The notes under the pieces were generated by a model that did no database searches, was not told the DNA's origin, and saw nothing but the letters and a program-made list of their open reading frames with translations. A DNA stretch of 64,000 nucleotides from the NCBI RefSeq assembly GCF_003712195.1, contig NZ_RDSD01000017.1:1-64000 (forward strand). Direction: 5' to 3'. The translations under genes were made by a program, and so were the position numbers. Positions 10,177 through 27,553 of the stretch are shown piece after piece (position 1 is the stretch's first letter; each line of letters begins with the position of its first letter). The stretch comes from Proteiniphilum sp. X52. GTDB taxonomy: Bacteria; Bacteroidota; Bacteroidia; Bacteroidales; Dysgonomonadaceae.

Positions 10177-10207
10177 CCGCCCAGTAATATAACCGCCCAG
10201 TAATATA
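10177..10207. repeat. Two tandem copies of a 16-bp unit
   Basis: CCGCCCAGTAATATA occurs at 10177-10191 and again at 10193-10207 with one A between. It lies just left of the MITE-like element, in the leader region of locus A. No function can be read from it. Confidence 0.7.
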
Positions 10208-10230
10208 AGACAAGAAAGAATAAATAATTT

Positions 10231-10413
10231 AGAAGCTGTTTTGAATTTTTTCATCCATTGTTTTTTAGCCATTTTTTGATGGATTTGGATTTTCATTGAT
10301 TGAAATGTGGCGGGCCACTTAAAAGAAATGAAAGTTCAAAGGCGCAAAAAAGAATATGAAAGAGTGGAAAAATAAGCGTAAAATAATCACTCGTAAAATT
10401 CAAAACAGTTTCT
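10231..10413 (+). mobile_element. MITE-like element, copy A (183 bp)
   Basis: A 183-bp element bounded by inverted repeats: left AGAAGCTGTTTTGAATTTT, right AAAATTCAAAACAGTTTCT. A second copy, reversed, lies at 61646-61837 and is nearly identical apart from a 9-bp insertion. Inside is the palindrome GTGGC-GG-GCCAC (10307-10318). No transposase is encoded, as in MITEs mobilised in trans. The right end runs into the stop codon of the FAD oxidoreductase gene (TTA at 10413-10415 on this strand). A TA or TTA target duplication is possible but not clear, since the flanks are AT-rich. Confidence 0.75.
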
Positions 10414-12302
10414 TAATCTTTATCATAAAGAGGTATCTCTATACTGTGTATTTTTGGCCCCAATGATCCGCCTAAATTATAATTTTGCATGTCCTCTACC
10501 TCATATTTCCCCACGCCCTTTTTCATCAGTTTTTTCAACTCACCCAGATAGTTATTATACACACCGCGCGGATTTGTATTGTTCCTGGCTGCTATCGACG
10601 CGGCCATTCCTACCACTTCTCCCATGATACCTGTCGTGCGCATTACCCTTACAGTACCTAAGGCGACATGAGTCACACTGATGTTCCTTCCCGCCATGAA
10701 AAGGTTGTCAATATTCCGTGAATAAAGACAGCGATAAGGAATCGGATAAGGATGAATGGGTTTATGTATGGCTATAGATAAAAATTCATTTTCAGGGAAA
10801 TGTTCCGTGTTCTGAGGATCCGGATAATGCAGGTCAATTGTCCAGGTTGTGGGTGCGGAAGCATCGGGGTAAATAACGAAATCCGTCAGATCCTGTTCTT
10901 TCAAAATGTGGTCACCCAGCAACCGGCGGGATTCTCTTTTACCGGCAATATAAGCAACCCAATCCAGTCTCCGATTAGCGTATTTTTCTTTATCAGCACT
11001 GAAATTCTTCAACCATGACCAGTTGGAATAGACCACCATAAGGCCATAATCACGTATCCGTTCAAACTCATTGATCTGATCATAATTCATTCCGGTTTCC
11101 CATGTCCATTCACCCATAGCCACCTGTTTCACACTTTCGTCGTTGAATTCCACACCATATTGGAATACCGGGAAATCAACAGGTTGACTTTCTTCCGCCG
11201 AATACCATTGTACGGACGCACCCATGGTCATTTTGTCCGGTGTCTCGGGAGCAGTGGGTTCCCCGAACTCATCCTTGGACTCCCGCCCCATGGCATAATC
11301 GGCTCCGGCAAGGAACCCGATCGTCCCGTCGCCGGTACAATCCGCGAACAATGGTGCTGCAAAGGAGAGCTCTTCTGAAGTTTCAATATGCCGTGCCTGC
11401 ACTTCGGTAATGGATGAACCTTCTGTTTTGACGGCAAATGCCCGGTAATTGGTAAAAAGCGAAATATTCTCCTCTGCCAGCACCATCTGCATTTTTTTCC
11501 CATCCTCATAATAATCTGCCGGCTGGGCATTCCCACCACGCGCGGGACCGATTTCCTTGACCACATCACCCAATGCAGGATAAGGTTCCACTTTAATTCT
11601 TCCCCCAAGATGCACACGCACTTCCGAGCTGTTGTTTCCTCCAAGTACGGGCCGATCCTGGATTAACGCGACTTTCAGTCCTGATCTTGCGGCAGATATG
11701 GCTGCTGTGGTCCCGGCCACTCCGCCGCCCACCACCACCAGATCAAATTCACCCGCTTGTTGCGGTTCTTCGGGTATATCCAGCATCTGTTTTCTGAAAT
11801 GACCCAAAGTTGCCGGTTCGTTGGGAGGAGATATGTTATCCTGCGTAAAATAAATGGCATCCACCCGACCGTTAAAGCCAGTCAAATCCTGCAGGGTGAT
11901 CACATTATCTTTTTTCCTGACCTCTACTTTTCCTGCTTTCTGCCAATACCATTCATTACCCCTACTACCCAGTACAGATCCTATTTTTTCTCCATTTAAC
12001 CTGATTTGGAATTTGCCCGGTCCCTCACCCTCATACCATGGTGAGGTCCAGTTAAATGTACGGACATATACATCATATTCCCCGGTTGAGGGAAATTCGA
12101 CAGATATTTCCGCATCGGCTACCGGCACGCCCATTCCATGCGCCATCAGGTAAGGAGAGCCCATCAGATCCATAAACTGTTGATCGACCACCCAACCGCC
12201 TTTCTTACTGAAATTCTCCGCCTCCACCAAAAGAGAAGGTGATTGTGCGATTATCCCATTCGCGACCATTGCGAACAATAAAACTAAACCATATTTCTTC
12301 AT
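10413..12302 (-). CDS. Secreted FAD-dependent oxidoreductase with N-terminal carbohydrate-binding-like domain
   Basis: 629 aa with a signal peptide ending in ..GIIAQS. Residues about 22-160 form a beta-rich module (LLVEAENFSKKGGW, then YDVYVRTFNW) like the CBM-type domains attached to secreted enzymes. Residues about 182-600 are an FAD_oxidored (PF12831-like) domain: the dinucleotide motif DLVVVGGGVAGTTAAISAAR, then the FAD-loop ..VLGGNNSSEVRVHLGG, the acid-containing DCTGDGTIGFLAGA, and near the end NLFMAGRNISVTHVALGTVRVM. Last gene of the locus B operon, downstream of a heptanucleotide array. Substrate unknown; oxidation of a sugar or sugar acid in the periplasm is a guess. Its stop codon lies at the edge of the MITE-like element. 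Confidence 0.85.
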   Translation of the reverse strand: MKKYGLVLLFAMVANGIIAQSPSLLVEAENFSKKGGWVVDQQFMDLMGSPYLMAHGMGVPVADAEISVEFPSTGEYDVYVRTFNWTSPWYEGEGPGKFQIRLNGEKIGSVLGSRGNEWYWQKAGKVEVRKKDNVITLQDLTGFNGRVDAIYFTQDNISPPNEPATLGHFRKQMLDIPEEPQQAGEFDLVVVGGGVAGTTAAISAARSGLKVALIQDRPVLGGNNSSEVRVHLGGRIKVEPYPALGDVVKEIGPARGGNAQPADYYEDGKKMQMVLAEENISLFTNYRAFAVKTEGSSITEVQARHIETSEELSFAAPLFADCTGDGTIGFLAGADYAMGRESKDEFGEPTAPETPDKMTMGASVQWYSAEESQPVDFPVFQYGVEFNDESVKQVAMGEWTWETGMNYDQINEFERIRDYGLMVVYSNWSWLKNFSADKEKYANRRLDWVAYIAGKRESRRLLGDHILKEQDLTDFVIYPDASAPTTWTIDLHYPDPQNTEHFPENEFLSIAIHKPIHPYPIPYRCLYSRNIDNLFMAGRNISVTHVALGTVRVMRTTGIMGEVVGMAASIAARNNTNPRGVYNNYLGELKKLMKKGVGKYEVEDMQNYNLGGSLGPKIHSIEIPLYDKD

Positions 12303-12322
12303 ATAATTAAGGATTTAGACAT

Positions 12323-12461
12323 AAGAATCAAGAACTAAGAACTAAGAACTAAGAACCAAGAGCCAAGAGCCAAGAGTCAAGAGCCAAGAGCCAAGAGCCA
12401 AGAGTCAAGAGCCAAGAACCAAGAGTCAAGAGCCAAGAACCAAGAGCCAAGAGCCAAGACT
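12323..12461. repeat. Heptanucleotide tandem array, 19 units
   Basis: Nineteen consecutive 7-bp units from 12323 to 12455, then a partial unit. Every unit begins AAGA; the last three bases vary: ACT (3), ACC (3), ATC (1), GTC (3), GCC (9). There are no indels in 133 bp. The array lies in the 218-bp spacer between the 823-aa lipoprotein and the FAD oxidoreductase, so it is transcribed within the locus B operon as a GGCTCTT-type repeat. Seven is not a multiple of three, so coding is unlikely. Confidence 0.9.
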
Positions 12462-12520
12462 AGTACGATTATTTATTCAACTTTCTCATATTCATGGGTT
12501 GCGCATGCGACTAAGACGGG

Positions 12521-14992
12521 TTATCTATATTCCAACCATGCGGTTACGTTTGTATCGGTATCGGAAATAAACCGTATCCAGCGCGCATGGAAGGAGGAGG
12601 GGAACTGATGATGCTGCTGTTGTCCCGGTTCCACAGTATAAACCGCATATCCCATCCAGTCACCGTTTCCAGTCGGATCTACCTCGACTGAGATCTTTAC
12701 CGCCTTTTCCGACGTATGAGACAAGGTTAATTCCCGTTGATCATAAAAACCGATCAGGTAAGGATCGGAAGCAACCTGTGCTTTTACGTTTGACCCCACC
12801 CACGGCCCCCCTTTTCCTGTGGGTTTTCCTAATTTCCACAGGTCGTCGATGACACCAGCCCATACGGCTGCTTTACCGTCTTGCGAAACAATGACATGAG
12901 CATTTCCCTTTCCTTCTTCCGGGCTAATACCCGTTAGTATAAGCATCCCGCGATAGGAAGCATAGTCATTGATACGGTAATGGTGGGTAGCTACCGGCCG
13001 GATCTTGGCATATCCGTCAGCATTCTCCGCCGGCAGCTCGTAAAAGGTTCCGTGGCAACTGAAAAGATCCCGCTCTGTGGCTACTTCACGACATACGCGT
13101 AACCGTCCCTCGTCGGTCAAAGAACTGTAAGCATCCTCCCCCAGGGGTAATCTCCACCGCCGGTTTTTATCATCGATCACCAGAACGGAACCTTTTTCTC
13201 TTTCCACTACCTGCCGGGGTATCGCAAATCGGTGACGGATAAAATCGGCTGTTGAAACATCCTCTTTTCGTTCCAGTTTCAGTTCTTCTCCCATTTCATA
13301 ATATCCGGTTTCCCACACTTCCCCATCAGTAGTTGTATTCGCCAATAAGCCCAGTGCGCGGCGGTTTTCACCTAAACCATATAACAATCCGCCCAGATTA
13401 GATTCCGATTCCACATCAGCCAATCCCTTGAAAATTTTATCCGGAACAGTACTCCTTCTATCGTTATCTTTATAGGTAAAGGCAAGAGTAAGTGTAGCCG
13501 GCCTGTCCGGTTTGGCGCGTACCCACTCACCTGTTTCCGATGAAGAAAACTCAATGTGGGTCGATTCTCCCGCAGCCAGTTCTATATTTTTCAGCCTGCT
13601 CCATTCATTATTTCCCTTTTTATCCACTTCATAGGTGACCGTTACCGGAGCAGAGCCTTCATTCCTTATCCAACTGCCGCGATGCGGCCAACCGGAAAAC
13701 AGGAATGGTTCCGAGTATTCATCAGCATCCACCTTCTCTGCCGCCCAAACAGCTCCCCCTGCCGTAGTAGGGCCCAACTCGTCTGGTGTGGAGACGGAAG
13801 TAAACCAGAGATTTGAATTGGATTGGCCAGGACCTTCAATATATCCTTTTGCCTCACGCCTGTTAAGGAATTCCCGTTGGGCCGAGTCATCACAGCCGAA
13901 AACCAACTGATTCTCCCATCTTGCAAAATCACCGATCACTTTCAGATAAGCGGAACGGGGACGTATGCCAGCGCTGTTCGTCGCTGTGAACGTACCGGGA
14001 AAATTCCAGAACATACCATGCATCATCATCAGATAATCCGGTCGCTTTTGGGTGCCTATATCGCGAATACGGGGCCACTCGGTATTCCATCCGTGTGCGC
14101 CGTCGTAACTGTGACTTGCTTTGGGCAAACGGTAAAATCTCCATCCCCGCGTCGCATCCCGCACACCGAGGAGAAGGGACTTATGGTCCCACCCCGTCGC
14201 CCAGATCGGGTCGGTTTCAGGATCCGAATTACCATATATTCCCCCCGGACCGGTTACCTCAACAAACTGATTCCGTCGCACTAATTTCCACTCTTTTCCG
14301 TCCCATTCGGAAAGGGATCCGGCCTCCACATCAAATTTATGCAACGCTTCCTGTGTGGCTTCCCCGTTATTGGAATAGACCAGTACTCCCTGCCCCGAAT
14401 AAAGGCCTTTACCGTGCGCACCGGGCAACAACGCTGCTTCCTGAGCCATTTCCCCGGGCTTGCGATCCACATTACCGTCACGGAACAGTTCTTTTACTTC
14501 GAGCGTATTCACATCCACTTCATAAAATCCCTCTTCCATTGTGCCGTAGTAGATCTTATTGGCAGGGTCCGTCAAATGACGCGCGTTCCCCGTATGCCTT
14601 CCGGGCATAACGGTATATGGAATAACACGCACGTTCCCTTCCGCGCTAATGGCATAGGGTCCGATAAAAAGCTGGTTACTTTCTTTGTGTATCATCCGGT
14701 TCGCAGGAGTGCCTCCGACACTTTCTTCACGGACTATCTTCTCCAAACCCGACGTGATCTGGTATAATTTGTCGGATGAACCGAAGGGCAAATGAGGGCC
14801 ATAGGTAATCATCCACAGGCTCCCCGCCCAGGGGACTACTGCCCCTGTACCACACTCGCCTTCGTCATTATAATAAGCCAATCGAGGATAAACACCCGAA
14901 ATAGAACCAGATAATCCTGTATTGTTTTTTTGCGCCGTACATGCTAAGATCCATATCGTTCCAACTGCAAAAAACAATTTCTTTAAATCCAT
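12521..14992 (-). CDS. Large lipoprotein of unknown function (locus B)
   Basis: 823 aa. Signal peptide with lipobox ILAC at about residue 18. I do not recognise the family with confidence. Visible features: a beta-propeller-like N-terminal two thirds with repeated blade ends (GTGAVVPWAGSLWMITYG, NQLFIGPYAIS, NKIYYGTMEEGFYEVD, GVLVYSNNGE), and a C-terminal part with two similar beta modules: V.VEVD..G.(N)W, once near residue 465 and once near 770, each followed by a WIR(F) or WVRA strand. It follows SusD in the same operon and precedes the oxidoreductase. No classical glycosidase motif was found. A polysaccharide lyase with a propeller fold (PL27-like) is one candidate from size and fold only; a binding protein is another. 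Confidence 0.75.
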   Translation of the reverse strand: MDLKKLFFAVGTIWILACTAQKNNTGLSGSISGVYPRLAYYNDEGECGTGAVVPWAGSLWMITYGPHLPFGSSDKLYQITSGLEKIVREESVGGTPANRMIHKESNQLFIGPYAISAEGNVRVIPYTVMPGRHTGNARHLTDPANKIYYGTMEEGFYEVDVNTLEVKELFRDGNVDRKPGEMAQEAALLPGAHGKGLYSGQGVLVYSNNGEATQEALHKFDVEAGSLSEWDGKEWKLVRRNQFVEVTGPGGIYGNSDPETDPIWATGWDHKSLLLGVRDATRGWRFYRLPKASHSYDGAHGWNTEWPRIRDIGTQKRPDYLMMMHGMFWNFPGTFTATNSAGIRPRSAYLKVIGDFARWENQLVFGCDDSAQREFLNRREAKGYIEGPGQSNSNLWFTSVSTPDELGPTTAGGAVWAAEKVDADEYSEPFLFSGWPHRGSWIRNEGSAPVTVTYEVDKKGNNEWSRLKNIELAAGESTHIEFSSSETGEWVRAKPDRPATLTLAFTYKDNDRRSTVPDKIFKGLADVESESNLGGLLYGLGENRRALGLLANTTTDGEVWETGYYEMGEELKLERKEDVSTADFIRHRFAIPRQVVEREKGSVLVIDDKNRRWRLPLGEDAYSSLTDEGRLRVCREVATERDLFSCHGTFYELPAENADGYAKIRPVATHHYRINDYASYRGMLILTGISPEEGKGNAHVIVSQDGKAAVWAGVIDDLWKLGKPTGKGGPWVGSNVKAQVASDPYLIGFYDQRELTLSHTSEKAVKISVEVDPTGNGDWMGYAVYTVEPGQQQHHQFPSSFHARWIRFISDTDTNVTAWLEYR

Positions 14993-15159: not shown

Positions 15160-16953
15160 CTACCATTCTGGATTTTGGTCGAGATTTTCGTTGATCAAAC
15201 GGTCAGCAGCAGGCACAGGCCACAGGTAGTCGCGCTCGGCATTGAACTTACGCTCACTCGCCACAACGATATAACCCGCATTAACCATATACCTGAGATC
15301 CGCTATACCGTTTTCATCAATCGCGGGTATGCCCCCGATAGGATAGTTTCCGTCTTTCCAATTTTGGATCAACTGACGATATTCTACTGACACAGAGGAT
15401 TCGTCACCATCCCATGAAGCTGAACCTGACCATGCGCGACGCAGGAAATAACTGGGCGTATTGTAAACCTTTTCGGCCAGTCTCCAACGTATCAAATCGG
15501 CATAGCGATGTCCCTCCCAGGCAAGTTCGATGAAGCGTTCAGTACGGAGGATCGTGCGCATAGCGCTCCGCGAGCCAACCATAACGCGAGGGTATGTAAT
15601 TCCTGTACCGGCATAAGCTCTTTCACGCAGTTTGTTGATTGTGGCATCCAGCACGTCCTGAGTACATCTGTCAAGTTCGATCATAGCTTCGGCATACATC
15701 AGCAACACGTCACCGTAACGCAACATGGGATATGTGGTTGGCGCTCCCGCACGTCCGTTTTCAAGGAATGATTCATCAATATACTTTTTAAAGCAAAAGC
15801 CATTGTAAGCGGCGTGTTCGGCCCGTGCTTTCGAATCGGTGTTACTCACTTGCGCGCCGTCTGAAGCACGGTAGACAGTAGTCCGGGTCGGATCCGGAGA
15901 ATATTCATAGCCAAGCCATACATAATCCCTGGGATCATACGTTCCGTCGAGAACGCTCTTATTGTAAGCCGTAGCAAAAGGTACAATGGTCATGGCCATA
16001 CGCGGGTCCCGGTTTTCAAAAAAGTCTTTTGGATTATAAAGTGGCGACTTGTCGATAGGTTGGCCGTCGATACAGGGATAGGCGCATACCAATTCGAAAG
16101 AGGGAGCGGCCACGCCACCCCATCCTCCTGCAAGACGGGTAATACAGTTCAGTACGTCGGAAGCAGCCCAATAATACCTTCTCAGGGCCACATCACCACG
16201 GAAGAAAAATATCCATTCATCCGACCACGAGGCAGTGAATAAATCCCGGTAATTATCGTGGAGTTTATAGACATTCAGATCCATACAAGCTTTTGCTGCC
16301 GTTGCTGCCGTTTCGTAATCACCGTTTCTGAGGGCGATACGCGCTTTGAATGCAAGAGCCGCACCTTTTGTAGCTCTTTGTATTCCCGCGTAGCTGGTCG
16401 GTAGACGCTTGGCAGCCTCATCCAAACACTCGTAACTGTACGCCAGTACTTCAGCTTTTGGCGAACGTGACATAGCGTAGGCCTGATCAAGTGTCATACC
16501 TGACTTATCAAGGATGGCATCCCCCCAGTGGAACGCCAACATGCCATAAGCATATCCTATATAAAAATAAGCTTCACCCTCATACCGGGTGATATCCGCT
16601 TCCGGCACTCCCATGGCACGCGCATTATCCATATTATTCAGGAGGCGTAACGCACGGGCAATACCTTTATAGAAACTTTGCCAACGAGTGGCCACGGTAC
16701 CATTCTCAGCCGTCATTGTCCCATTCTGCACGCTTGTACTGGTATTGCGCCACACCATATCGTCGCTCCAGCCCCAATGGTCAATAGGGAAAAAATCGGT
16801 ACGGTAAAAGTCGTTCAGCGACATTTCGATCTCTTGCTGCGATGAATACCAACTTCCACTTGATCCTTCAGACAACGGATTAAGATCAAGATCGACACAA
16901 CCCGAAAGGATGGACATTGATATTATGTTGATAATTAGCAATATCTTCTTCAT
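15160..16953 (-). CDS. SusD/RagB-family nutrient-binding lipoprotein (locus B)
   Basis: 597 aa. Lipobox ILSGC at about residue 19. SusD core with ALRLLNNMDNARA, YFYIGYAYGMLAFHWGDA, ATKGAALAFKARIALRNGDY, and the C-terminal signature MLRYGDVLLMYAEAMIEL, ILRTERFIELAWEGHRYADLIRWRLAE, LWPVPAADRLINENLDQNPEW. Twelve bp downstream of its SusC in the same operon. It should bind the ligand of locus B at the cell surface. Confidence 0.95.
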   Translation of the reverse strand: MKKILLIINIISMSILSGCVDLDLNPLSEGSSGSWYSSQQEIEMSLNDFYRTDFFPIDHWGWSDDMVWRNTSTSVQNGTMTAENGTVATRWQSFYKGIARALRLLNNMDNARAMGVPEADITRYEGEAYFYIGYAYGMLAFHWGDAILDKSGMTLDQAYAMSRSPKAEVLAYSYECLDEAAKRLPTSYAGIQRATKGAALAFKARIALRNGDYETAATAAKACMDLNVYKLHDNYRDLFTASWSDEWIFFFRGDVALRRYYWAASDVLNCITRLAGGWGGVAAPSFELVCAYPCIDGQPIDKSPLYNPKDFFENRDPRMAMTIVPFATAYNKSVLDGTYDPRDYVWLGYEYSPDPTRTTVYRASDGAQVSNTDSKARAEHAAYNGFCFKKYIDESFLENGRAGAPTTYPMLRYGDVLLMYAEAMIELDRCTQDVLDATINKLRERAYAGTGITYPRVMVGSRSAMRTILRTERFIELAWEGHRYADLIRWRLAEKVYNTPSYFLRRAWSGSASWDGDESSVSVEYRQLIQNWKDGNYPIGGIPAIDENGIADLRYMVNAGYIVVASERKFNAERDYLWPVPAADRLINENLDQNPEW

Positions 16954-16965
16954 ATAAATAAGTAT

Positions 16966-19900
16966 TTAAAATTTAACATTCACTCCCAAAACGAAAGAAG
17001 TTGATATGAAGTCTGACGATGAACCGACCTCGGGATCCCATCCTTTCGGAAAGTTACTAATGGCCGGCAGGTCATTTATACTGAGATATAAACGCATATC
17101 CTTGACCCTCATTCCACTCAACAGATCATTGGGCAGTGAGTAACCAAGCGTGATATTTTTCGCGCGGAAATAAGCACCATTGAAGAGCCAGTAATCTGAT
17201 CCGGCATAAGTATTCGTTGTATTGGTATAGGTCAGACGCGGATACTTGGCATTGCGATTTTGCTCTTCGGTGTTGTGCTGGCTCCAGTAGTTACCCAATA
17301 CAAGTTCCGGGACGGCGCCCCATTGTTCTTTGAGAGGTTGAATCCAGTCCGAATTAAACAACACACGCTGGTGACCTACACCTTGAAATGAAAAACTGAA
17401 ATCAAAATTTCTCCAACCTAAAGAGATATTACCTCCATAAAGGTATTCCGGTTGCGAGTTTCCCAGAGGCACCTTGTCATCAGCGTTAATAATACCGTTT
17501 CCATCCACATCGACATACTTAATGTTACCTGCCTTATCATTCGGTGTAAGTGTCGGATACTTTTTGCCGTTCGCATCATAGAGATCCGCATCGGTCAGGA
17601 ACAGACCATCACTTTTGTACATATACCATTCATAGTAATATGATCCCTTTTCGTAGATACGGTTACCATCGATAGTACGCTTGTCACCCAGGTAACCCAT
17701 TTTTGAACGGTAATCCGACAGATTCGCCGAAACGCTATACCACAGATCACCCAGTCTGTCAGACCAGCCTACTTCCAGGTCCCAGCCTTTGGTATACATA
17801 TCACCGGCATTCTGTTGAGGAGCTGAAAATCCGGCATAGGAGGGAAAACCGAGTTCAAGTAACATATCGGAAGTCTTTTTGTAATAATAATCGCCGGTAA
17901 AGCTCAAACGGTTATTCAACAATGCCAGGTCGAGACCCATCCCATAGGTTGTGGTGGTTTCCCATGTAATATTCTCAAATGCATAATGAACTTGTGCGGC
18001 ATTCTGCAAAGCCGTCACGGTTTGTGACGATTTATCGTACATATAACTGTTTCCAAAGGTAATGGCAGCCAGATAAGGGAACTCCGAACCAATACGCTCG
18101 TTGCCGAGTTGACCGATAGAACCGCGTATCTTCAGGTAATCTGCCAGATTATTTTTGAACCACGACTCTTCCGACATGACCCATCCGGCAGATGCAGAAT
18201 AGAATGTGCCCCAACGGTTTTCCTTGGCAAATCGTGACGACCCGTCGGTGCGTACATTACCCTGAAGCATGTACTTGTTTTTATAGGAATACATCAATCG
18301 CCCGAATACCGACTCATAAGCGTTGTGTCCGGCCTTACCCTTATTATATTGATAATCTTCTGGGCCAATATTGAGATAAGGATAGCTATCAAGCAGGTAG
18401 TTTGAGCGTGAAGCTTCCGTTTCTTCCCATTTATAGGAATACCCCTCGTAACCAACCATGGCGTTGAACGAGTGACTACCCCAGATATTCTGGTAATTAC
18501 CATAGAACTGGTATGTCTGGCTGTTATTATCGTTTCTCTTTTCTTCAAGGTTCGTTGTCTTGTGCAGTTGCATATAGGTATAAGATCCGTCTTCGTAATA
18601 GACAGGGACGGCGCGTGAGAATTTCTTCCCTTTGGTGAACGAGAAGCGGGGAGCAAAGATAGCTGTCAGGGTAAGACCTTTCAATGGAGTGAGATCTATT
18701 TGCGCCTTACCCCCAAACTTATAATAACCTATTCTATTGGAACCTCCTTGTTGCAGCCCGGCAAGCGGATTGGCTCCATCTTTCGAATCGGCGTAGCGAC
18801 CGTCTTTCCAGAATGGGGTATAATAAGGTGCCGCCAAATAGGCCCAATATATGACATCCATTTGCGAGGGACTGATCGAATTGGATTTTGAGAAATCGAC
18901 GTCGATATTGGCACGAAGCCAATCCGTTATGTTATAATCATTGTTGACACGGCCAGCAATACGCTCATAGGATTTGTTTTCGTAATATCCGTCGCCTTTT
19001 TGATAATTGAAGGTTGATTTGGTCCGGAGTTTTTCAGTGCCCCCCGAAACACTCAACACATGTTGCTCATGTGTAGTCGACTTCTTCAATAGCAGATTAA
19101 CCCAGTCCGTATTGGGATAATGATAAGGATCGGTAGCATTTTTATCGAGCCAGGAGGCAATAGTCTCCTGTGAATACTGAGAATAAGGATCCGCGGCACC
19201 GTCATTCCATTTTATTTCGTTTTGTATGTTCATCCAGTCGATCACGTCACCGTTTTTGGGTCGGGTTGTGGGTCTGTCAATGCCATATTCATAGTTGTAA
19301 TCAAAAGTGAATTGGCGATCTTTGGCCCGCTTGGTAGTGATAAGGATGACACCTGCCGCTGCCCGTGATCCGTAAATGGAGGCAGAAGCAGCGTCCTTCA
19401 AGACAGTCATCGTTTCCACATCGGATGCCACCACATCATCAAGAGACGACGGCACACCGTCGACAATTACCAGAGGATCATTGTTCGAGAGTGTAGTAAT
19501 ACCCCGGATACGCACAGTGGCCGAAGCACCCGGCGCACCGGAATCCCGGGTCACCTGAACGCCCGCAATCTGTCCCTGCATGGCAGTAGATATCTGCTGG
19601 GTGGAACGATTAGTCAAAGTCTCGCCTTTTATACTTGATATGGCACCGGTGAGATCCCCCTTGCGGGCAGTACCGTAACCTACCACCACTACTTCTTCCA
19701 ATGTTTTTGTATCTTCCTGAAGAATGATATCCATAGCCGTTTTACCAGCCGTACTGACATTTTGGGGCAAATAACCGATATAGGAGATATGAAGAACGGC
19801 ATTATCTGCCACCTGCAGGGAGAAACTTCCACTTATATCGGTCACGGTACCGTTCGTTGTACCTTCCTCAACAATATTGGCCCCGATAATGGGATCTCCC

Positions 19901-20289
19901 TGTTCATCGACAATCGTGCCGTTTATGGTCTTTCTCACCACCTGTGACACTACCGGCGCCTTGGTGATAATTATATGGTTCTCACGCACGGCATAAATAC
20001 ATCCCGTATCCCGAAGTAATGCTGTCATAATATCAGCTAAGGAACCGTTTTTTTGAGGTATTGAAACCGTTTTGCTTACATCAATGATTTCACGATTATA
20101 GTCGACTGACATCTTCGTTTGCTTTTCTATCTCGGCAAAAGCGGTCCTGAGTGTTAATCGGGTATTTGTCAGGGAAACAGATTGTCCCCAAGAAAGTTGT
20201 GCCTGAAAAAAAGAAAAGGTTATTAACAGAAATAAGAACCGACACAAATAATTTATTCTTAATCTGCCTTTATTGTCATTTATTTTCAT
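16966..20289 (-). CDS. SusC/RagA-family transporter with STN domain (locus B)
   Basis: 1107 aa. After a signal peptide (to about residue 36, ..LSWGQS) comes an STN secretin/TonB N-terminal domain (about 40-110: LTLRTAFAEIEKQTKMSVDY..IIDVSKTVSI..IIITK). Then a CarboxypepD_reg domain (about 118-200), the plug (VEEVVVVGYGTARKGDLTGAISSI, ..TVRIRGITTLSNNDPLVIVDGVP, DAASASIYGSRAAAGVILITTK) and the barrel ending in ..FVLGVNVKF. An STN domain normally contacts a FecR-type anti-sigma factor, and a FecR gene lies directly upstream. This points to substrate-triggered sigma release rather than HTCS control. Confidence 0.96.
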   Translation of the reverse strand: MKINDNKGRLRINYLCRFLFLLITFSFFQAQLSWGQSVSLTNTRLTLRTAFAEIEKQTKMSVDYNREIIDVSKTVSIPQKNGSLADIMTALLRDTGCIYAVRENHIIITKAPVVSQVVRKTINGTIVDEQGDPIIGANIVEEGTTNGTVTDISGSFSLQVADNAVLHISYIGYLPQNVSTAGKTAMDIILQEDTKTLEEVVVVGYGTARKGDLTGAISSIKGETLTNRSTQQISTAMQGQIAGVQVTRDSGAPGASATVRIRGITTLSNNDPLVIVDGVPSSLDDVVASDVETMTVLKDAASASIYGSRAAAGVILITTKRAKDRQFTFDYNYEYGIDRPTTRPKNGDVIDWMNIQNEIKWNDGAADPYSQYSQETIASWLDKNATDPYHYPNTDWVNLLLKKSTTHEQHVLSVSGGTEKLRTKSTFNYQKGDGYYENKSYERIAGRVNNDYNITDWLRANIDVDFSKSNSISPSQMDVIYWAYLAAPYYTPFWKDGRYADSKDGANPLAGLQQGGSNRIGYYKFGGKAQIDLTPLKGLTLTAIFAPRFSFTKGKKFSRAVPVYYEDGSYTYMQLHKTTNLEEKRNDNNSQTYQFYGNYQNIWGSHSFNAMVGYEGYSYKWEETEASRSNYLLDSYPYLNIGPEDYQYNKGKAGHNAYESVFGRLMYSYKNKYMLQGNVRTDGSSRFAKENRWGTFYSASAGWVMSEESWFKNNLADYLKIRGSIGQLGNERIGSEFPYLAAITFGNSYMYDKSSQTVTALQNAAQVHYAFENITWETTTTYGMGLDLALLNNRLSFTGDYYYKKTSDMLLELGFPSYAGFSAPQQNAGDMYTKGWDLEVGWSDRLGDLWYSVSANLSDYRSKMGYLGDKRTIDGNRIYEKGSYYYEWYMYKSDGLFLTDADLYDANGKKYPTLTPNDKAGNIKYVDVDGNGIINADDKVPLGNSQPEYLYGGNISLGWRNFDFSFSFQGVGHQRVLFNSDWIQPLKEQWGAVPELVLGNYWSQHNTEEQNRNAKYPRLTYTNTTNTYAGSDYWLFNGAYFRAKNITLGYSLPNDLLSGMRVKDMRLYLSINDLPAISNFPKGWDPEVGSSSDFISTSFVLGVNVKF

Positions 20290-26944: not shown

Positions 26945-26986
26945 AATTCACTATTAATTTTTCACTTTTAACTTTTCATTTTTCAC
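26945..26986. repeat. Short AT-rich heptanucleotide array, 6 units
   Basis: Six consecutive 7-bp units read AATTCAC, TATTAAT, TTTTCAC, TTTTAAC, TTTTCAT, TTTTCAC. The array ends at 26986, directly against the stop codon of the metallopeptidase fragment (26987). Like the array at 12323, the period is exactly seven without indels, though the sequence is different. Confidence 0.6.
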
Positions 26987-27553
26987 TCAATTATCCCAAT
27001 TATACAAATTTTCCGTTTTATGACGGCTGATCCTTTTATCCGTTTCAGGAAAGTATTCGGACAAGATCCCATACAATCCGGGATCATATACTTTCAGCTC
27101 TTCCCGGGTATTCACTTTATTATGCTTCCCGTCACCTCCGTCATTATCTACTTCAGCATTGACATTAAACCAACTCTGCACGCCTTCCGCCCAATATTCC
27201 CAGATATTGGTCGCGGCATACGTATTCAGCCATCGTCCGTTTTTGAGGGCGGTATCCAGCAATGTTTTCAGACGATCGTTGAAATCATGGTTTATCGGAG
27301 ATATACCGACATCGTGTATCGTATGCGCGAATTCATGGATCAGAATATCTTCCGCATGATATTTATCGATCTGATACGCCAGGATATTCTCTTCGGCACA
27401 GGTAGTCAGTGGTAAATCAAGCGTTCCTCCCAATCCCCTGGCACGCACATCCCAATTCAGGGAAGTGTCATTGGCGAGATGGGCATGTTCGGGTATATCG
27501 GTGGTTCCTTCGTAACGCGCGATTGTCAAACAGTGATTGAAATCCATTGACAT
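26987..27553 (-). pseudogene. Fragment of a zinc metallopeptidase-like protein (HExxH), N-terminus missing
   Basis: 188 aa, no signal peptide. HEFAHTIHDVG (about residues 73-83) is an HExxH zinc motif; about 45 residues later WEYWAEGVQSWF offers the Glu typical of gluzincins. The beginning (CLTIARYEGTTDIPEHAHLA, then RARGLGGTL) reads like the middle of a longer secreted protein, so the 5' part seems to be lost. It starts 7 bp after the stop of the GH127 gene, so it is probably still translated with it. I do not recognise a named family. It could be a functional short protein, but the missing export signal argues against that. Confidence 0.6.

Follow-up and report, generated by a model that had tools for sequence, protein, structure and literature searches.

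Within the window, by which we mean the whole 64,000-nucleotide stretch of Proteiniphilum DNA analysed here, a row of minus-strand genes comprises, in order, a SusC-like gene (16966..20289), a SusD-like gene (15160..16953), an ORF for an 823 aa protein (12521..14992) and an ORF for a 629 aa FAD-dependent oxidoreductase, assigned by Pfam (10413..12302; PF12831). The 823 aa protein matched no Pfam family at E 0.001. The last two genes are separated by a spacer of 218 nt, which holds a heptanucleotide array 13 nt before the oxidoreductase start codon. Both flanking ORFs (14992-12521 and 12302-10413) lie on the minus strand, in agreement with an earlier sequence-only reading that had placed the array between two co-directional genes. 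Past the end of the oxidoreductase gene, at 10177-10208, a 16-bp unit, CCGCCCAGTAATATAA, is present in two exact copies.

Direct reading resolves the spacer, from the oxidoreductase start outwards, into an AT-rich leader of 13 nt (12303..12315), a terminal unit TAGACAT (12316..12322), 19 AAGANNN units in perfect register over 133 bp (12323..12455), a terminal unit AAGACTA on the spacer side (12456..12462) and a remaining array-free stretch of 58 nt (12463..12520), all annotated on the minus strand. The unit sequences are those of the plus strand; in the sense of the flanking genes the array reads NNNTCTT. Including its bounding units, the whole repeat spans 12316-12462. Tandem Repeats Finder placed two calls over the array (12329-12459 and 12322-12361), both of period 7 with 0% indels, which together with direct reading confirms the 133-bp run without an indel that had been claimed. 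The start at 12323 and the length of that run were also correct, but the proposed end at 12461 cuts into the terminal unit AAGACTA. The outermost unit (ATGTCTA in sense) opens a 7-codon upstream ORF, MSKSLII (12299-12322, minus strand), the TGA of which overlaps the oxidoreductase start codon.

The AAGA core is intact in all 19 units (76/76 letters), although 10/19 units deviate from the commonest last three letters (GCC in 9 units, ACT, ACC and GTC in 3 each, ATC in 1). The view that the mixed variants are older units with point changes is thus not supported, because free mutation would strike AAGA as well. A four-unit AAGA pattern with at most one mismatch matches the window 18 times, in every case within the array, compared with an average of 0.01 matches in shuffles (n=100). 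Exact block duplications within the array gave p 0.03 for block size and no significance on two other measures; as proof of slippage they were rejected on account of these weak statistics.

The promoter box of the host's phylum is TANNTTTG. Neither the 218-nt spacer nor the preceding 200 nt contains such a box, and read-through from the upstream genes across the array is therefore likely. Rfam returned a single match over the window, a tRNA (tRNA-His), and a known RNA family was accordingly rejected as the identity of the array. The spacer folds worse than 200/200 shuffles (z 2.96). In a comparison of 69 heptamer spacers with 144 tract-free spacers, from which 19 intermediate spacers were omitted, neither end-to-end distance (p 0.96) nor fold energy (p 0.18) differed; an earlier, smaller run had given, among the results listed, a mean z of -1.83 for 66 array spacers vs -1.12 for 60 controls, but no general effect was seen in the larger comparison. 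A spacer-spanning hairpin joining the stop codon to the next start was rejected on the p value of 0.96 and on the poor folding of the window spacer, the RNA of which remains, as predicted by folding, an unstructured UC-rich leader. The repetitive RNA that had been suggested for the array is likely to be made, in poorly structured form, if the gene row is one transcript.

The orthologous site and the AAGANNC family

Among named organisms, Proteiniphilum acetatigenes DSM 18083 is the closest relative (oxidoreductase, 91%). For the orthologous site, the best 80 of 204 oxidoreductase loci were fetched, and 17 of these 80, all of them Bacteroidales loci, have an adjacent, script-called homologue of the 823 aa protein, with spacers of 7-590 nt. 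None of the 17 holds a period-7 tract in the spacer of this gene pair. Two congeners, G021 (91%) and G014 (93%), share the same 13-nt spacer, in which the site is empty. The array at this site is therefore specific to the source lineage. Variation of the site among relatives, and absence of the array from them, had both been raised beforehand, and both are borne out by the 0/17 count. The further proposal, of a device of the oxidoreductase gene, is not supported: elsewhere the same pair lacks the array, and arrays like it stand beside many other genes. The window array says little about the oxidoreductase, and its interest lies in a direction law common to unrelated units, which is described below. 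At this one gene pair, moreover, both filled and empty sites occur naturally within the genus, and the type strain P. acetatigenes DSM 18083 has an empty one, so that the origin of such arrays and any effect on operon expression are directly testable.

The search for other heptamer arrays that had been proposed detected 40 AAGANNC arrays by script in the genome parts read, 36 outside ORFs and 4 inside. Source genome and three congeners together gave 115 arrays, a set in which orthologues are not collapsed and loci were partly chosen for arrays. The window array is the longest detected, at 22 units by a script count that includes degenerate edge units; the runner-up in the set of 115 has 14. 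Five is the commonest unit number (52/115), the first unit starts with T in 61/115 and the last starts with AAGAC in 72/115. The outer unit in this family is usually TAGA and the inner one AAGAC, as in the TAGACAT and AAGACTA that bound the window array. Part of the genus Proteiniphilum carries the family in its spacers, most often in those that separate co-directional genes.

Pattern searches gave 66 matches, at 20 places by our own count, for four units with at most three mismatches, and 144 matches for a looser AAGANNC pattern (100 of the 144 listed). Three units with one mismatch match in 13/41 genomes, and four exact units in 10/395 genomes of the phylum and 9/171 genera, the own genome being included in each case. 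Backward-read controls were discarded as not neutral, because they fit a sister family, GAACT. Among the titles and abstract openings of open-licence papers that our literature search listed, none concerned AAGANNC repeats in Proteiniphilum or its family.

The preference for seven letters extends beyond this unit. Over 464 kb (20 stretches of 20 kb plus the window), 13 period-7 tracts were found vs 0 in simulated sequence, with one simulated sequence per stretch. Period 8 gave 8 tracts, periods 5, 6 and 9-13 gave 0-2 each, and periods 14 and 21 merely repeat the period-7 tracts. The period-7 scan yielded 11 tracts in 400 kb of the source genome vs 6 in 869 kb of loci mostly from other genera. 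Sister families in spacers have units that include AAGARTG, GGAACTT and AATTACC, together with octamers such as AATGTGCC. At 26947-26987 of the window, in a spacer of 276 nt and just past a stop codon, lies a weaker tract of period 7/14, TTCACTTTTAACTT, which belongs to the AAAAGTG family. In G149, a genome of another family, AAGANNC arrays at L224, L225, L227 and L228 run into CAGATAT heptamers; the four loci hardly differ in their flanks, have an ORF of 132 aa at a distance of 484-485 nt, and are probably copies of a mobile element.

Orientation of arrays at gene edges

Orientation was scored in spacers under 500 nt by comparing the distance from the 5' end of the AAGA strand to its neighbouring gene with the distance from the 3' end to its own. 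The 5' end faces the nearer gene edge in 31/34 spacer arrays of the source genome (p 8e-7) and in 97/105 arrays when three congeners are included. Before start codons the sense strand reads GNNTCTT (66 arrays at a median of 12 nt from the start; 62/66 fit), and after stop codons it reads AAGANNC (32 arrays at a median of 4.5 nt from the stop; 31/32 fit). Between convergent genes 2/2 arrays fit, and between divergent genes only 2/5.

The same rule is obeyed by 30/32 tracts of other heptamer and octamer families in the source genome, a count for which the family strands were named after inspection of the tracts. In the stretches unselected for arrays (20 plus the window), 5/8 purine-rich tracts lie near a stop codon and 4/5 pyrimidine-rich tracts near a start, and this purine/pyrimidine form of the rule is only suggestive. 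Outside the genus 6/9 fit, which is not significant: G433 and G315 follow the rule, G358 and G157 do not, and L236, a near tie, was scored against it. A general purine skew of spacers was rejected as the cause of direction, the skew being slight (0.54 after stops and 0.47-0.49 at 20-50 nt before starts).

Spacers filled by an inverted pair of arrays occur at L047, L184/L219, L201 and L240; two more, L234 and L236, come from outside the genus, in other families. Such pairs would be expected of a mobile inverted-repeat element of MITE or REPIN type, in which AAGANNC and its complement form the arms and single arrays are decayed halves. Composite copies with common flanks and empty sites in congeners, both described below, would also suit such an element. 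However, the majority of arrays are single, unit order varies between copies, and the RAYT-type transposase PF01797 occurs in only 6/39 genus genomes and in neither of the array-rich G014 and G021. We therefore consider such an element distinctly improbable. An origin through RAYT/REP was rejected, as PF01797, with a partial match in G000, does not track the arrays.

Turnover of arrays between species

Array sequences were compared between species in 31 pairs with homologous flanks, which are not independent, since a single locus may be represented by as many as three or four species. Differing letters numbered 17/612 in the core, 30/288 at the NN positions, 1/130 at position 7 and 282/3592 in the flanks, in a comparison that is biased toward intact cores because a pair counted only if an array was detectable in each of its two species. 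Many orthologous pairs have the same unit number in both species; at several loci the number differs.

These observations bear on two functional readings. In the first, the array is a contingency (phase-variation) locus at which unit number switches the oxidoreductase. A long array immediately before a start codon, and the loci at which unit numbers differ between species, are as such a switch would have them; against this stand the lack of a promoter-like box around the array, the variant units that break its homogeneity and the constancy of unit number in many orthologous pairs, and we regard phase variation as extremely unlikely.

The second takes the arrays for functional mRNA elements, in which tandem UCUUGNN units some 12 nt before starts, and AAGANNC after stops, tune translation as binding sites for ribosomal protein S1 or some other RNA-binding protein. 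Its premise is that the host phylum has no Shine-Dalgarno sequences. Initiation in Bacteroidetes depends on leader structure and on letters near the start, according to the accessible part of PMC6847099, and an unstructured leader, the median of 12 nt between array and start in the 66 arrays with a start on that side, and the slower change of core than of NN letters would all accord with such an element. On the other hand, the array is absent from the same gene pair at 17/17 other loci, arrays adjoin many kinds of genes, 32 arrays lie in the opposite orientation directly after stop codons, and the estimate of core constraint carries the bias toward intact cores noted above. A role of this kind is in our judgement unlikely.

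In a second set, the condition of an array in both species was lifted. Here 19 source-genome arrays were taken and 16 had usable orthologous spacers; L040, which had no match, and L049 and L059, with unusable flanks, were left out. Judged by eye, 11/16 spacers retain AAGANNC-type units in at least one congener, often in different number. At L061 the orthologous spacer holds an AAGANNC array, though not the same one, retention at L037 is doubtful, and no AAGANNC units were seen at the orthologous sites of L031 (one congener read), L042 and L062. The composite array L043 is absent at its site in both congeners checked, where the spacers measure 78 and 105 nt. At L042 the left module is shared with the congeners, whose GTAATTG units occupy the place of the AAGANNC and AAGTTCC units. 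G014 matches the region of L045 without a difference across 3000 bases; in G021 no clear counterpart of it was seen.

Five loci (L034, L036, L042, L043 and L062) have array-adjacent sequence in common, with flanks 73-88% alike. Together with the exchange of modules at L042, this suggests that arrays may be copied between spacers that have modules in common. The order of parts in these composites is GGTGG-type octamers or AAAAGTG units, the AAGANNC array, TTAAATTTCTTCACTTT and AGTTCCC units, and G021 carries related copies. At the congener loci L289 and L306 only the array after the stop codon is kept; by comparison, L061 in G000 has acquired a further stretch ahead of the start codon, and this bears an AAGANNC array of its own.

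Taken together, the window array is probably a lineage-specific, unusually expanded member of a dispersed AAGANNC family that occupies spacers in part of Proteiniphilum. The 40 arrays, the 13 period-7 tracts vs 0 simulated, the 0/17 loci with the same gene pair, the empty site of L043, the swap at L042, the composite copies, the direction counts and the poor folding all favour this. Its most likely nature is that of spacer DNA whose turnover comes from slippage and from copying between loci. Arrays would grow from short seeds through replication slippage or unequal exchange, and would spread by copying between spacers that already have repeat modules in common. They would be tolerated because the stop codon and some 12 nt before the start codon stay intact, and a copying or recognition process, rather than the gene next to the array, would maintain the AAGA..C core. 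If both genes share one mRNA, the distance from stop to start would have grown from the 13 nt of the congeners to a poorly structured, UC-rich leader of 218 nt, which would be expected to loosen translational coupling rather than regulate the oxidoreductase gene.

Some evidence points the other way. The weakly significant block duplications fall short of proving slippage, and the constant unit number in many pairs does not resemble a repeat with fast slippage. Among nine genus genomes no donor or second copy was found for the 58-nt array-free part of the spacer (12463..12520), which may count against copying. A functional element would also account for the sharply defined distance of 12 nt to starts and for the constraint on the core.

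Relation to known heptamer repeats

Cyanobacterial short tandemly repeated repetitive (STRR) heptamers form arrays dispersed between genes, with unit sequences that are probably different from AAGANNC. The closest counterparts are those of two Xanthomonas species, with GGGAATC units, and of Nostoc (Anabaena), with GGGGAYT units; both are described in PMC4692102, which also mentions heptanucleotides in Calothrix. According to the accessible sections of that paper, the repeats lie close, at 28 nt, to the ORF on their 5' side and much farther, at 160 nt, from the next one, regardless of ORF orientation, four units are preferred in Xanthomonas, 70 and 75 inverted pairs occur, length varies between related species, and most copies are transcribed in one species; those sections give no function as found and discuss the direction law in terms of G-quadruplex formation.

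AAGANNC resembles these repeats, as far as those sections describe them, in being dispersed and intergenic (36/40 outside ORFs) with fixed AAGA..C and free NN letters, in lying nearer the 5' neighbouring ORF (31/34), and in having a preferred short unit number and inverted pairs. It differs in its commonest number, five (52/115) instead of the four preferred in Xanthomonas, and in having no GGG on either strand, so that it cannot form G-quadruplexes. Unlike in Xanthomonas and Nostoc as covered there, several unrelated unit families obey the direction rule in one genome, here in the phylum Bacteroidota. AAGANNC hence stands outside the quadruplex repeats and within a wider kind of gene-edge heptamer. 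The gene-edge direction law in unrelated bacteria was already known; its occurrence in AAGANNC, a non-quadruplex unit, and in Bacteroidota appears to be new. Given that the law holds for AAGANNC and for 30/32 tracts of other families, quadruplexes are unlikely to be its common cause.

A more speculative proposal, which we rate as very improbable, is that a directional process lays heptamers outward from gene edges, in that 3' ends at spacer breaks are extended in the fashion of telomeres, with seven-letter units, by a polymerase that acts in repair or by reverse transcription; one and the same strand would then always point away from the gene. One-sided addition would then yield single arrays like that of the window, and two-sided addition inverted pairs. 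If true, directional addition alone would explain the direction law, the many families and the TAGA outer and AAGAC inner ends, and also why units are seven letters long in Bacteroidota, Xanthomonas and Nostoc alike.

Porphyromonas gingivalis belongs to the same order as the source organism. Its BrickBuilt element, a MITE with a minisatellite (PMC4596501), likewise places a tandem repeat in intergenic elements. As described in the accessible part of that work, it is unlike AAGANNC in its 23-nt unit, its leader and tail with inverted ends and its distance of 49-591 nt from genes.

TAACTGA direct repeats are reported from marine Beggiatoaceae, Cyanobacteria and five Bacteroidetes (MacGregor, PMC4679880). 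The accessible sections describe related heptamers as rare in the main genome, propose that the upstream orientation is a site for a translational regulator, and refer to a proposal that links the unit size of 7 nt to polymerase contact and slippage. These repeats share with the present ones the intergenic position, with many directly upstream of start codons and other heptamers in the same spacers, and there too long arrays occur in some Bacteroidetes; the unit of the window array, in contrast, is AAGANNN.
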